DNA of 64,000 nt from Sphingorhabdus rigui (GTDB taxonomy: Bacteria > Pseudomonadota > Alphaproteobacteria > Sphingomonadales > Sphingomonadaceae). Position 1 is the first letter of the stretch. Every line of letters starts with the position of its first letter. The stretch lies in NCBI RefSeq assembly GCF_014196595.1, contig NZ_JACIEA010000001.1, forward strand, positions 1,296,546 to 1,360,545, given 5' to 3'. A program made the translations under genes and the position numbers. Below, one piece after another: positions 53,015-56,907 of the stretch. The notes beneath the pieces were generated by a model. It was not told where the DNA came from. It ran no database searches and worked only from the letters and a program-made list of their open reading frames with translations.

Positions 53015-54412
53015 TTAAGACTTCACCACCTCATGCGCCTTTAACGCACGCTCACGCGCGGCTTTGTGGCCAATGATTTTGCGCGGATAGCTTTTTGGCC
53101 GTGCGCCATATTCGTCGGGGTCATGAATATACGGCTCTTGCAAGCCCGCAAGCTCCGGCACCCATTCGCGGATGTAACGTGCGGCGTCGAATTTCTCTGA
53201 CTGCGACAATGGCGCCATGATGCGCACGAACATATTGCTGTCTACGCCCGTCCCCGCTGTCCATTGCCAATTGACGCTGTTGCTGCCGTAATCGGCATCG
53301 ACCAGCGTATCCCAAAACCATTTTTCGCCTTCGCGCCAATCAATCAGGAGATGTTTGACCAGGAACGACGCCGCAATCATCCGCACGCGGTTATGCATCC
53401 ATCCGGTCGCCCATAATTGCCGCATCCCGGCGTCGACGATTGGGTAACCCGTCCGACCCTTAGTCCATGCCACGAAATCAGCCTTTACCGCCGGATCGGA
53501 TAGATCGCGCCACGGCAGCCTGTCAAACGCATCGCGAGCATTCTTCGCGCCATATTCGGGCATCTGGACGATCACATTCTGCGCATAGTCCCGCCACACC
53601 AGTTCCTTAAGGAACACGTCAACCGACCCGCCGGCATGCATGGTCGCGTGCCAGCACGCAGCAGGTGAAATCTCGCCAAAGTGCAGATGCGGTGACAGGA
53701 ATGACGAACCCGCCACCGATGGCAGATTGCGTTTCTCGTCATAAAATTTGGCCTTGTCGGCAAAATCCTCAAGCCGATGCCGCGCACCAGCTTCACCCGG
53801 GATCCACATATCGGCCATAGCGCCGGACCAATCGGGCTCGGTGGGTAACAGGGCCCAATCATTTAAGCCTTCGCTCGCCGGCCATGTATGGGGCGCAGCG
53901 ACGTGCGCGGGTGCTGCCAGTGGCACGGGCGGCGGCATATGCTGCCAAAGCGCGCGCATGAATGGCGTGTAGATCTTGTACTGACCGCCGGTGCCTGTTG
54001 TGACGCTACCTGCGGGCAACAGATAGTTGCCGTCATGGCACACAAATGCGCAACCCGTGCTTAGCCCACTTGCAACGGCCTTTTCCGCATTCCGCCACCA
54101 TGGTTCGTAATGCCGCATGCAATGAATGGCCGACGCGCCGGTCTCTTCAGCGAGTGCGCATAAAACGTCGTCGGATTTTCCGGCGCGCAGGATCAATCGC
54201 GACCCCAACGCCCGCAAATCTGCGTCGAGCGCCGTCAGACTATGGTGCAACCACCAGCGCGACGCCGCGCCCATCTTGCGATGCTTTGGCGTATCGTCAT
54301 CAAGGATGTAGACGGGGATAACCGGCGCACCACTTGCCACTGCGGCTGCAAGCGCAGCTTGGTCCGCAAGACGCAGGTCGCGGCGCAGCCAGAGGATAAC
54401 TGGGGCCGTCAT
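53015..54412 (-). CDS. phr: deoxyribodipyrimidine photolyase
   Basis: Light-driven repair of cyclobutane pyrimidine dimers with FAD. 465 aa: N-terminal antenna Rossmann domain (VILWLRRDLRLADQAAL) and C-terminal FAD domain with FLSPHLHFGEIS, ELVWRDYAQNV, GYPIVDAGMRQLWATGWMHN, and the signature VDADYGSNSVNWQW. The start overlaps the DUF457 gene stop (ATGA). Confidence 0.96.
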   Translation of the reverse strand: MTAPVILWLRRDLRLADQAALAAAVASGAPVIPVYILDDDTPKHRKMGAASRWWLHHSLTALDADLRALGSRLILRAGKSDDVLCALAEETGASAIHCMRHYEPWWRNAEKAVASGLSTGCAFVCHDGNYLLPAGSVTTGTGGQYKIYTPFMRALWQHMPPPVPLAAPAHVAAPHTWPASEGLNDWALLPTEPDWSGAMADMWIPGEAGARHRLEDFADKAKFYDEKRNLPSVAGSSFLSPHLHFGEISPAACWHATMHAGGSVDVFLKELVWRDYAQNVIVQMPEYGAKNARDAFDRLPWRDLSDPAVKADFVAWTKGRTGYPIVDAGMRQLWATGWMHNRVRMIAASFLVKHLLIDWREGEKWFWDTLVDADYGSNSVNWQWTAGTGVDSNMFVRIMAPLSQSEKFDAARYIREWVPELAGLQEPYIHDPDEYGARPKSYPRKIIGHKAARERALKAHEVVKS

Positions 54413-55371
54413 TTGCTTTCAACTCCAATGGGAAAGAACATACTGAACCGGTCACCCACCAGCGGGTCAGAAAAGCGCTGGTCGGAAACCTTCAACGTCT
54501 TTTTTGCACCGTCGCCAACAATCTCGGCCACCGGCATACGTGACCAGAACAACAATGGCGTACCGCGGGCAATATGTGCCTCAAAAGCCTGGGAATCTTC
54601 ACGTCCCATATAATGGGCGCGAATGTCGTCATCGATGCGCGCGCCATGAAACGGCGTGTACGTGCCCTGCCCATAATGGCTGTCATCGCGCCAAAGCATT
54701 TCACGCTTCCAAAATTGCACAGGCACAGGGTTTGCGACAACCAGAGTCGGCATAATCTTATGCTGTTTCTGAACGGCTTGAGCGGTCAATTGCTCCGCCC
54801 TGCCCGTGATGAGCCCATTGGCCAAGAGATACGCGCAAATGGCGGCAAAACTGGCCAACGCCGGTGTGCGCCAGTTTGCGCGCCCCTTACGTTCGCGGCG
54901 AAGCGAAACCCAAACGCCGCATATCAGCGCAGCCCACAGCCAGATGTCGATGATGAATAACGTATCGCCATAAAACCATTGGTTCGAAAATGGTTCGAGC
55001 AAACGGATCCCGTAACTGTTGAACCAGTCGAAAAGCGGGTGGCTCAAGCATCCAACATAAGCCAGCGCCAACAACCAGCCTTTATGGACGGGCAACCTTT
55101 TCTCAGGCCGCTTTCCGCGTCTTTCTTGCCAGCGATCAAAGCACAGCATGATGCCCCACAACATCAGCGGCAGCACCAGCATCGCGATTGGACCATGCGT
55201 GAGGCCGCGCCGGATCGCCAAATGCTGCTGCCCGCCCAGCAAAGTCGCCACGGCGTCAATATCGGGGATGTTCGCAGCAATAATCAGCGTGGGCATGGCA
55301 AGGCCAGTCCGCCGCTTCAACCCCATTTGCCCGATGAGCGCGCCAACAAGGCTATGAGTGAGATTATCCAT
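54409..55371 (-). CDS. membrane-bound metal-dependent hydrolase (DUF457/YdjM-like)
   Basis: 320 aa with several hydrophobic helices. N-terminal MDNLTHSLVGALIGQ (metal His), NIPDIDAV (Asp pair), RRGLTHGPIAM and CLSHPLFDWFNSYGIRL are the family's conserved His/Asp sites. Predicted zinc-dependent phosphatase-like or nuclease-like membrane enzyme (LexA-regulated YdjM in E. coli belongs here). The ATG at 55371 gives the family start. Together with phr it may be a DNA-damage unit; inference only. Confidence 0.85.
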   Translation of the reverse strand: MDNLTHSLVGALIGQMGLKRRTGLAMPTLIIAANIPDIDAVATLLGGQQHLAIRRGLTHGPIAMLVLPLMLWGIMLCFDRWQERRGKRPEKRLPVHKGWLLALAYVGCLSHPLFDWFNSYGIRLLEPFSNQWFYGDTLFIIDIWLWAALICGVWVSLRRERKGRANWRTPALASFAAICAYLLANGLITGRAEQLTAQAVQKQHKIMPTLVVANPVPVQFWKREMLWRDDSHYGQGTYTPFHGARIDDDIRAHYMGREDSQAFEAHIARGTPLLFWSRMPVAEIVGDGAKKTLKVSDQRFSDPLVGDRFSMFFPIGVESK

Positions 55372-55383
55372 AACAAATTTACT

Positions 55384-55848
55384 CGCACAAAGGCACGAAG
55401 GCACAAAGATAGGATTTAAGCTAAGGGTCGGTAATAATCGTTCGCCAGTCGCTTTACGCCATCGCGAAATGTTTCCATTCCGAAATTCATTAGCAAACCT
55501 AATGGAAGTCTCATCAGCCTCAGATACGTGAGAACCTGCTTTGCATGCACCGCCGCATGCTTTTCCGTCGACTTAATTTCAATCAGCAGGCTGCGTTCAA
55601 CCAACAGATCGGCGCGAAAGCCCTGCTCAAGAACGCGTCCGTTATACGAAATTGGAATGACTTTTTGAACCTCGACAAAAAGCCCGCGATCTTTGAGCGC
55701 CTCACACAAAAGAAGCTCATAGACCGATTCCAAAAGGCCCGGTCCAAGCTCTTTGTGAAGCTTAAAGCCGCAATCTATCGCTGCCTTTGCTAGTGCTTCA
55801 ACGTCGCCCTGCACCAAAACCTCCTTCGTGCCTTCGTGCCTTTGTGCG
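55384..55848. mobile_element. inverted-repeat-bounded GxxExxY cassette
   Basis: A perfect 21-bp inverted repeat, at 55384-55404 and 55828-55848, flanks a single gene of 402 bases. Each arm is built of three tandem 8-base units GCACRAAG. The right arm ends 11 bases upstream of the gene start and the left arm begins 12 bases after its stop. No transposase is present. I read it as a small non-autonomous mobile unit, or as a regulatory repeat that always travels with this gene family. The exact outer edges and any target duplication are not clear. Confidence 0.6.
55416..55817 (-). CDS. GxxExxY protein (PD-(D/E)XK nuclease-like)
   Basis: 133 aa with the family signature GPGLLESVYE at residues 25-34 and a nuclease-like core RADLLVERSLLIEIKS (Asp70, Glu80, Lys82), the pattern of PD-(D/E)XK enzymes. 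Function is unproven in bacteria; members are scattered and often surrounded by direct and inverted repeats. Here it sits inside perfect inverted repeats, between korB and the DUF457 gene, in the same direction as both. Confidence 0.85.
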   Translation of the reverse strand: MVQGDVEALAKAAIDCGFKLHKELGPGLLESVYELLLCEALKDRGLFVEVQKVIPISYNGRVLEQGFRADLLVERSLLIEIKSTEKHAAVHAKQVLTYLRLMRLPLGLLMNFGMETFRDGVKRLANDYYRPLA

Positions 55849-55860
55849 CGTTAAAATCAA

Positions 55861-56907
55861 TTAAGTCTCCGGATGGCCCTCGGCTACGGTCCAGGTTTGT
55901 CCCTTTGCCAGCAGCTTGCCGAGATCAGGTGATTTACCTGCACTGGCCGACTCGTTTTGCGCGATGACGGCGTCGTTAAAGGTCGGGCGTGGATCGTCGT
56001 ACAGGACGCCGAGTGCCATGGGGAATTCGCCAAATGGCATTTCCACAAGCATGTGCGCGAGCGAACGGTTGGTCACGTCATGGACGATAACGCCCGCGCT
56101 CTGCCAATCGCCATCAACGACATCGACAACCTTCAGCGTCAGCCCAACATTGTCGAGCGCAATGCCTTTGGTGCCGCCGGACTTTTCGCTGCCGAACAAC
56201 ATCGGCTCACCATTACGCAGCCACAATTGGTGGCCGTCAGCACCCTTTGGCGCAGCGAAGTCTTCAAACACGTCCTTGTTATACACGATGCAGTTCTGGA
56301 AGATTTCGATGAACGCCGCGCCGCGATGGGCGTGCGCTGCCTTCAGCACGTCAGGCAGATTTTTCGACACATCAAAGCCGCGCGCAACAAACCGCGCGCC
56401 TGAACCCAGCGCAAACGCACATGGCGTGGCTGGACGATCAACCGAGCCATAAGGCGTCGACGGGCTGTTAGTGCCAACGCGCGATGTTGGCGAATATTGG
56501 CCCTTGGTCAGGCCGTAAATTTCATTGTTGAACAGCATGATCTGGCAATCCAGATTGCGGCGCAGCAAATGCATCGTGTGGTTGCCGCCGATCGACAGCG
56601 CATCGCCATCGCCCGTGATAATCCATACATCAAGATCGGGATTGGCGAGCTTTACACCCGTCGCCACCGCAGGTGCGCGGCCGTGGATGGTGTGGAAGCC
56701 ATAAGTTTCCATATAATATGGGAAGCGCGACGAGCAGCCGATGCCGCTGATGAACACGGTGTTTTCGGGCGTGCCGCCGATTTCAGGCATGGTGCGCTGC
56801 ACCGCCTTCAAAATCGCATAGTCACCACAGCCAGGGCACCAGCGAACCTCTTGGTCGGTTTCCCAATCCTTGGGCGTCGTCGCTTTCACGGGGGTCATAT
56901 CGTTCAT
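55861..56907 (-). CDS. korB: 2-oxoacid:ferredoxin oxidoreductase beta subunit
   Basis: 348 aa. Thiamine-diphosphate subunit of 2-oxoglutarate (or pyruvate):ferredoxin oxidoreductase. Cys24 and Cys27 (WCPGCGDYAIL) and Cys58 (GIGCSSRFP) match the 4Fe-4S site; the TPP motif is GDGDALSIGGNH, and LFNNEIYGLTKGQYSPTS is present. It overlaps the korA stop by one base. This type, with fused gamma-alpha subunit, occurs in aerobes as an oxygen-tolerant alternative or supplement to the oxoglutarate dehydrogenase complex. Confidence 0.94.
   Translation of the reverse strand: MNDMTPVKATTPKDWETDQEVRWCPGCGDYAILKAVQRTMPEIGGTPENTVFISGIGCSSRFPYYMETYGFHTIHGRAPAVATGVKLANPDLDVWIITGDGDALSIGGNHTMHLLRRNLDCQIMLFNNEIYGLTKGQYSPTSRVGTNSPSTPYGSVDRPATPCAFALGSGARFVARGFDVSKNLPDVLKAAHAHRGAAFIEIFQNCIVYNKDVFEDFAAPKGADGHQLWLRNGEPMLFGSEKSGGTKGIALDNVGLTLKVVDVVDGDWQSAGVIVHDVTNRSLAHMLVEMPFGEFPMALGVLYDDPRPTFNDAVIAQNESASAGKSPDLGKLLAKGQTWTVAEGHPET

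Follow-up and report, generated by a model that had tools for sequence, protein, structure and literature searches.

A small GxxExxY gene of Sphingorhabdus rigui lies between two facing arms of an inverted repeat, arms of the same make flank genes of this family in many phyla, and gene-less copies of the arms are far more frequent in genomes that carry the gene. This points to an undescribed partnership of a nuclease with the repeats on which it probably acts. On balance we lean towards a nuclease–palindrome system that resembles REP/RAYT, though its nuclease is unrelated, and in which the arms serve as the element recognized.

The cassette was found in a stretch of 64,000 nucleotides, here called the window, and its parts are listed in Table 1. 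The arms are 24 nt long each and contain three units of the form GCACRAAG. The inverted repeat is perfect over 21 bp, as the preliminary description of this DNA had stated, and shows 90% complementarity over 31 nt. The score of the repeat at this locus (L018) was 47, whereas none of the 1,140 composition shuffles made for the loci under test scored above 27, so a chance repeat could be ruled out. The distance between arm and reading frame is 6–7 nt when measured from the full arm and 10–11 nt from the 21-bp perfect core. No reading frame for a transposase is present between the arms, which agrees with the earlier description. According to our own reading, the GxxExxY gene starts with TTG at 55817 or GTG at 55814. 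The right arm ends in GAAG and GAGG comes next (55817–55824), which places GGAGG a few bases ahead of the TTG or GTG codon. Judging from these letters, the purine-rich right arm may double as the ribosome-binding site of the gene. The YdjM-like left neighbour served us as the marker for the orthologous site in relatives.

Table 1. Arms, gene and neighbouring genes of the GxxExxY cassette in the window
Feature	Position	Strand	Description	Basis
Left arm	55384..55408	+	C-GCACAAAG-GCACGAAG-GCACAAAG, i.e. C followed by three 8-nt units	sequence, repeat search
Right arm	55824..55848	-	reverse complement of the left arm with one A/G difference in the last unit	sequence, repeat search
GxxExxY / PDDEXK_3 gene	55416..55817	-	133 aa	ORF, profile matches, AlphaFold2 model
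YdjM-like membrane protein gene (PF04307)	54409..55371	-	left neighbour; ATG start by our own reading	
2-oxoacid:ferredoxin oxidoreductase beta subunit gene	55861..56907	-	right neighbour	name read from translation only

Sequence comparison supports the view that the repeat belongs to the GxxExxY gene family and not to the window locus alone. The gene was found above the cut-off in 15 of 99 genomes of the window's family, in 17 copies. The shuffle test excluded 10 loci whose length was unusual (contig ends, or a match below the cut-off). Of the loci from the window's family that were long enough to test, 15 of 16 exceeded the best shuffle; the same was true for 18 of 22 loci of family f28, which were the best-scoring ones of the phylum search, and thus for 33 of 38 loci together. 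A control with mismatched loci was uninformative in this test, because some of the loci are homologous to each other.

The preliminary description had pointed out that GxxExxY genes are scattered in bacteria, and the 80 named loci that we collected do come from many phyla. It had also made its idea depend on the presence of arms around other genes of the family. A strong flanking inverted repeat (score of 30 or more) was present at 64 of the 80 loci, with a median of 42 for all 80, whereas pairs of control segments taken 1.2 kb further out at the same loci did not reach this score in any of 63 cases (maximum 27). Mismatched pairs reached the threshold in 435 of 3,160 combinations, because the arms of different loci share a consensus. 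Of the 64 repeats, 54 were pairs of inward arms that each had at least two units, and six were such arms in outward orientation; the remaining four were of another make, one of them of low complexity. Among the 16 loci without a strong inverted repeat, the contig edge is no more than 30 nt away at L089, L122 and L138 and no more than 62 nt away at L075. In a separate pattern search, an inward arm of two or more units was found on both sides of 68 of 96 GxxExxY loci, and only 5 of 240 outer control segments contained an arm.

The gene flanked by arms was also seen on a Bacteroides finegoldii plasmid and, at fabD–fabG, on a Sphingomonas plasmid. The plasmid search gave six records altogether, and arms were present in both of the two examined. 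One relative, again with arms, was found among viral contigs, and the phage search gave no match. The element has terminal inverted repeats, as insertion sequences and MITEs do.

A search of whole genomes for the arms, which the preliminary description had suggested, revealed gene-less arm pairs in the window's genome and in others. Besides further single arms, the window's own genome has at least two outward gene-less pairs, one of which lies between genes read as ileS and lspA. Forward and reverse arms numbered 54/51 in G066, 16/15 in G042 and 69/75 in G220. In many of the inward gene-less pairs the starts of the arms are about 115–130 nt apart, and the interiors of such pairs mostly could not be aligned with each other. 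Pairs written in another letter dialect were nested in the loops of pairs at L180, L181, L182, L243, L245, L251, L262 and L264. We also noticed inverted repeats of a different type (CTTGTCGAAGG and CTGAACTTGTTTCAGGATC) inside or beside arm pairs at L265 and L267 (G042) and L241 (G066), as if palindromes collected in palindromes.

The presence of arms followed the presence of the gene. With kinship between the genomes ignored, arms were carried by 46/57 gene-positive and 24/242 gene-negative genomes of the phylum sample, and by 13/15 and 15/84 genomes, respectively, of the window's family. Because gene carriers hold gene-adjoining arms by construction, we recounted the genomes with more than two arms per gene; the numbers, likewise regardless of kinship, were then 39/57 versus 24/242 in the phylum sample (p 6e-19) and 12/15 versus 15/84 in the window's family. 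The association was weaker inside f28 (39/45 versus 16/29, p 0.005), and outside f28 it was 7/12 versus 8/213, both counts again ignoring kinship. Among the arms listed, gene-less arms were closer to the gene arms of their own genome than to those of the other four in four of five genomes, the exception being G066.

Five genomes (G072, G069, G094, G001 and G021) lack the gene and yet are rich in arms, which leaves room for movement in trans or for relics. In two gene-negative genomes, G021 (L275–L277) and G001 (L259, L260), most arm pairs are outward with about 17–23 nt between them; the pairs in the gene-positive G042 and G054 are inward. The arm-rich genomes without GxxExxY would suit a MITE-like or REP-like repeat that is moved in trans by some transposase, with GxxExxY as a passenger caught long ago, and so would the excess of gene-less arms, which far outnumber the genes in several genomes, and the largely locus-bound gene lineages described below. 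We nevertheless regard this explanation as unlikely, since a chance passenger does not account for the same arms around the gene in many phyla and the transposase family examined, RAYT, was not associated with the arms. RAYT presence and arms were unrelated (3/17 versus 25/82, p 0.38), which rules out RAYT as the mover of the arms, and no PF01797 match was obtained in the window's own genome. The four-helix-bundle profile TIGR02436, considered as a second candidate for a gene between arms, gave no match in the 99 genomes, and the control genomes were without a match too.

The letters of the arms were then compared. The consensus of the unit is NCRCRRAG and is much alike across phyla; the spacing is mostly 8 nt and three units per arm are commonest. 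These statements rest on a search pattern in which the C, C and A positions were fixed and the R and G positions free or nearly so. The purines at the R positions vary between elements but agree between the arms within each. For 40 elements whose arms both have three clean units, the identity of the arms was 93.4% within an element, whereas it was 75.4% on average when the arms were re-paired and did not exceed 81.4% in 5,000 deals of the right arms. At the fabD–fabG locus, the identity was 95.7% within and 82.6% between elements (15 elements, p 2e-4); the YdjM and rnr loci, with two elements each, gave this test no power, and the fourth locus had no such element. It is clear that the two arms of one element change together. 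At one fabD–fabG locus (L095), all six units in both arms end in CG in place of AG, and L083 shows an AG-to-CG switch as well.

Differences between the arms did not favour G-U over A-C (40 versus 55, p 0.15), so the constraint looks like one of DNA recognition and shows no sign of RNA pairing. Similarly, no Rfam family reached the gathering score in 12 element loci or in the searched stretch of the window, and the 21 matches below the threshold belonged nearly all to microRNA hairpin families. These results bear on the idea that the arms are RNA or expression signals of the gene or operon (a stem, a terminator, a processing site or a ribosome-binding site) and that the element is a stable domesticated gene. 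Such a role would fit the run of the start-side arm into GGAGG, the purifying selection on the protein and the position of several insertions between co-directional operon genes such as fabD and fabG. It would, however, leave unexplained the many arm pairs that enclose no gene, and taken together with the lack of a G-U preference and of an Rfam match this makes the idea very improbable.

The window protein matched the GxxExxY profile TIGR04256 with 123.1 bits (cut-off 35, E 7e-36) and PDDEXK_3 (PF13366) with 122.3 bits (cut-off 22, E 2e-35). Its AlphaFold2 model consists of a single domain with a pLDDT of 93.5. The closest solved structure was SSO0001 (PDB 4ic1; VIA Z 9.0, 103 residues at 4.8 Å), which we take to be a Cas4. 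The same entry was the top Foldseek match, a moderate one (E 1.7e-3, TM 0.52), there being no match at or below 1e-3. A second structure titled Cas4, 4r5q, had a Z of 6.4 to the model; restriction-endonuclease-like and Holliday-junction resolvase folds followed at lower Z, and many of the best-ranked chains are titled nucleases or restriction endonucleases. The Cas4 sequence profile matched the window protein weakly (E 0.04), and the sequence-profile comparison also pointed weakly towards a Cas4-like fold. In an alignment of 79 GxxExxY sequences, from which L061 and L130 were left out for an in-frame stop, E30, D70, E80 and K82 were among seven invariant columns. These columns and the model together give the D...ExK active site and the typical fold of the PD-(D/E)XK superfamily.

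On the strength of the predicted fold, GxxExxY appears to be a small Cas4-like PD-(D/E)XK nuclease with conserved active-site residues, and the gene product is probably a DNA-cutting enzyme. The likeness to Cas4 and RecB-type nucleases lies in the predicted fold and in the order of the active-site residues. In Cas4, four cysteines bind an iron–sulphur cluster. The window protein has only two cysteines in its 133 aa, neither at a conserved position, which leaves no room for such a site. The gene is under purifying selection, with a dN/dS of 0.066 between the window gene and that of G405 and of 0.10–0.26 at the rnr locus.

To follow the element in close relatives, we compared 45 genomes of the window's genus, at those loci where both flanks were found. 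At the window site, the gene and its arms were present in the window's genome (G000), G405 and G407. A short arm pair in another dialect, lacking the gene and in some cases degenerate, was found in G402, G412, G403, G400 and G418. G397 and G398 had a remnant, and G416, G399, G395, G393, G408 and G392 had no element at all. A second locus is situated ahead of a gene read as rnr. Here the gene element was found in G405, G412 and G393, a deletion derivative that keeps the gene start in G395, a short pair in G399 and an unrelated insert without arms in G392, whereas the site was empty in G000, G400, G402 and G416. The GxxExxY gene of G415 at this locus (L288) is interrupted by about 750 extra bases, and part of the gene start is repeated. 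The element at the rnr locus is thus present or absent at an orthologous site in close relatives, as homing endonuclease genes are.

At a third locus, the copy of G405 is full-length with a broken reading frame, that of G395 is intact and that of G415 is longer. Internal-deletion derivatives occurred there in G402 and G418 and remnants in G393 and G392, and another allele with a tiny hairpin was seen in G000, G412, G400, G403 and G416. In the orthologs of the L222 site (L290–L294), the element-free allele has a tiny hairpin in which a single unit is paired with its reverse (CTTTGCGT ... ACGCAAAG). In addition, G405, G418 and G403 have a short pair with a 16-nt loop that G000 and G412 lack. These alleles, whether filled, deleted, empty or reduced to a remnant, all come from one genus, so elements are gained or lost and decay within it, and some of the gene-less elements are deletion products of gene elements.

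The search for an empty site in relatives, proposed earlier, yielded element-free sites. A comparison by eye of sites with and without the element, made at four loci, gave no clean junction and no target-site duplication. Filled and empty alleles differ in their flanks too, so the exact insertion point is undefined.

The states of these sites can be fitted into the following scheme, which belongs to the REP/RAYT-like reading that we favour. The tandem NCRCRRAG units would most likely be the DNA recognition element of GxxExxY, and a single palindromic site would arise where two arms face each other across a short loop. The gene would be seated in the middle of such a palindrome, so that the cassette would be the gene-bearing form of the partnership. 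We infer that the nuclease recognizes the arms and cuts there, that arm pairs are then copied by break repair to allelic or similar palindromes, and that the nuclease occasionally copies its own gene likewise. This would leave a single gene copy or a few at fixed loci, alongside many palindromes that lack the gene, derivatives with internal deletions, and empty alleles. REP/RAYT would work along the same lines, with another enzyme. The gene in the palindrome loop, the short-loop pairs and the nested pairs together suggest that elements are copied by repair into the uninterrupted palindrome, which would be the target.

A stricter form of this explanation, overlapping it, is a drive of the homing-endonuclease type, in which the nuclease would cut the element-free allele or an uninterrupted palindrome and be copied in, the arms being the split site. 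The gene is located in a palindrome loop, gene-less short-loop palindromes exist (L223, L234, L238), truncated or internally deleted copies are found (L222, L230, L235, L286), related species have filled and empty alleles at shared loci, and the lineages are largely locus-bound, all of which speaks for such a drive. Yet the undefined insertion point between alleles with different flanks and the rnr empty alleles (L281–L284), in which no obvious palindrome was seen, speak against it, and we consider the strict form rather doubtful. Homing endonucleases of the I-SspI type are PD-(D/E)XK enzymes. GxxExxY resembles them in being a small PD-(D/E)XK nuclease gene, in its presence or absence at fixed loci and in its decaying copies; it differs in lying outside an intron or intein and in carrying its own repeat arms, which are found elsewhere in the genome too.

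The likeness to REP/RAYT is broader. According to one study, RAYT is a chromosomal nuclease gene flanked by inverted short repeats with gene-less doublets elsewhere in the genome, the abundance of the repeats goes with the gene with some exceptions, the repeats around a gene can switch and the association has a long shared history with the host (PMC3686654). GxxExxY shares with this system the nuclease gene between inverted repeats, the many gene-less inverted doublets, the switching of flanking repeats and the long history with the host. Repeat abundance also follows the flanked gene, with exceptions (39/57 versus 24/242 in the recount that ignores kinship), which by analogy would put GxxExxY in the place of RAYT. 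The enclosed gene, however, encodes a PD-(D/E)XK protein (PF13366) and RAYT is an HUH tyrosine enzyme (PF01797); the arms are tandem 8-nt NCRCRRAG units, and the window arms have no GTAG-like 5′ tetranucleotide of the kind that marks REP; and RAYT presence is unrelated to the arms. Since both the enzyme and the repeat are unrelated to those of RAYT, the GxxExxY system is not a member of the REP/RAYT family.

MITEs are likewise short gene-less elements with terminal inverted repeats, and some GxxExxY elements (L230, L235, L286) derive, like them, from a gene-bearing copy by internal deletion. The GxxExxY elements differ in having no transposase, and the interiors of most aligned gene-less copies are mutually non-homologous; a target-site duplication was not seen at the four loci compared. 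It is possible, and we put it forward tentatively, that an independent, genome-wide repeat–nuclease system stands beside IS/MITE and REP/RAYT in many phyla. Its Cas4-like nuclease would reside in the loop of the palindrome that it targets, would home to further palindromes and, through break repair, would maintain the likeness between the arms of every copy.

We also looked at how far the gene itself moves. When GxxExxY copies were clustered by their flanking genes, fabD–fabG accounted for 20, the window site and the rnr site for 6 each and a fourth locus for 5. In a protein tree of 99 sequences, 36 of them in the four locus groups, the four locus labels required three changes, which is the minimum, whereas shuffled labels required 15.1 on average; taken singly, the fabD–fabG group and the window-site group required two changes each. 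Single forks of this tree are weak, since the alignment has few columns. The sphingomonad lineages are thus largely locus-bound, and the gene rarely changes its locus there, while elsewhere in the tree the phyla are intermingled, which suggests that the gene has passed between hosts of distant kinship. In the genomes with several copies, G089 (L022, L028), G066 (L016, L029) and G405 (L192, L221, L222), each copy has its own locus and its own arm letters. The preliminary description had suggested that the cassette may be a minimal unit that spreads by itself, or may be moved in trans. The part of this that held is that the repeat goes with the gene family and that relatives have filled and empty sites; free spread was not supported, the lineages staying largely at few loci and gene-less pairs being numerous instead. 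One record titled Arthrobacter (L101) has the sphingomonad fabD–GxxExxY–fabG locus and groups with Sphingomonas in the tree; the assembly is probably mislabelled or contaminated.

In the passages of open-access literature examined, GxxExxY is mentioned in passing, and searches there for the arm sequences and for related wording gave nothing on this arm–gene system. Our reading would provide a common protein family, for which no function was found in that literature, with a DNA partner and with a role open to experiment, and a class of intergenic CRCRRAG-type repeats in distant bacteria would be accounted for. If it is true, the REP/RAYT way of life, in which a cloud of cognate palindromes surrounds a chromosomal nuclease, has had more than one origin, with unrelated enzymes. 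A 15-mer of the arm sequence also turned up in a paper on fish eDNA.
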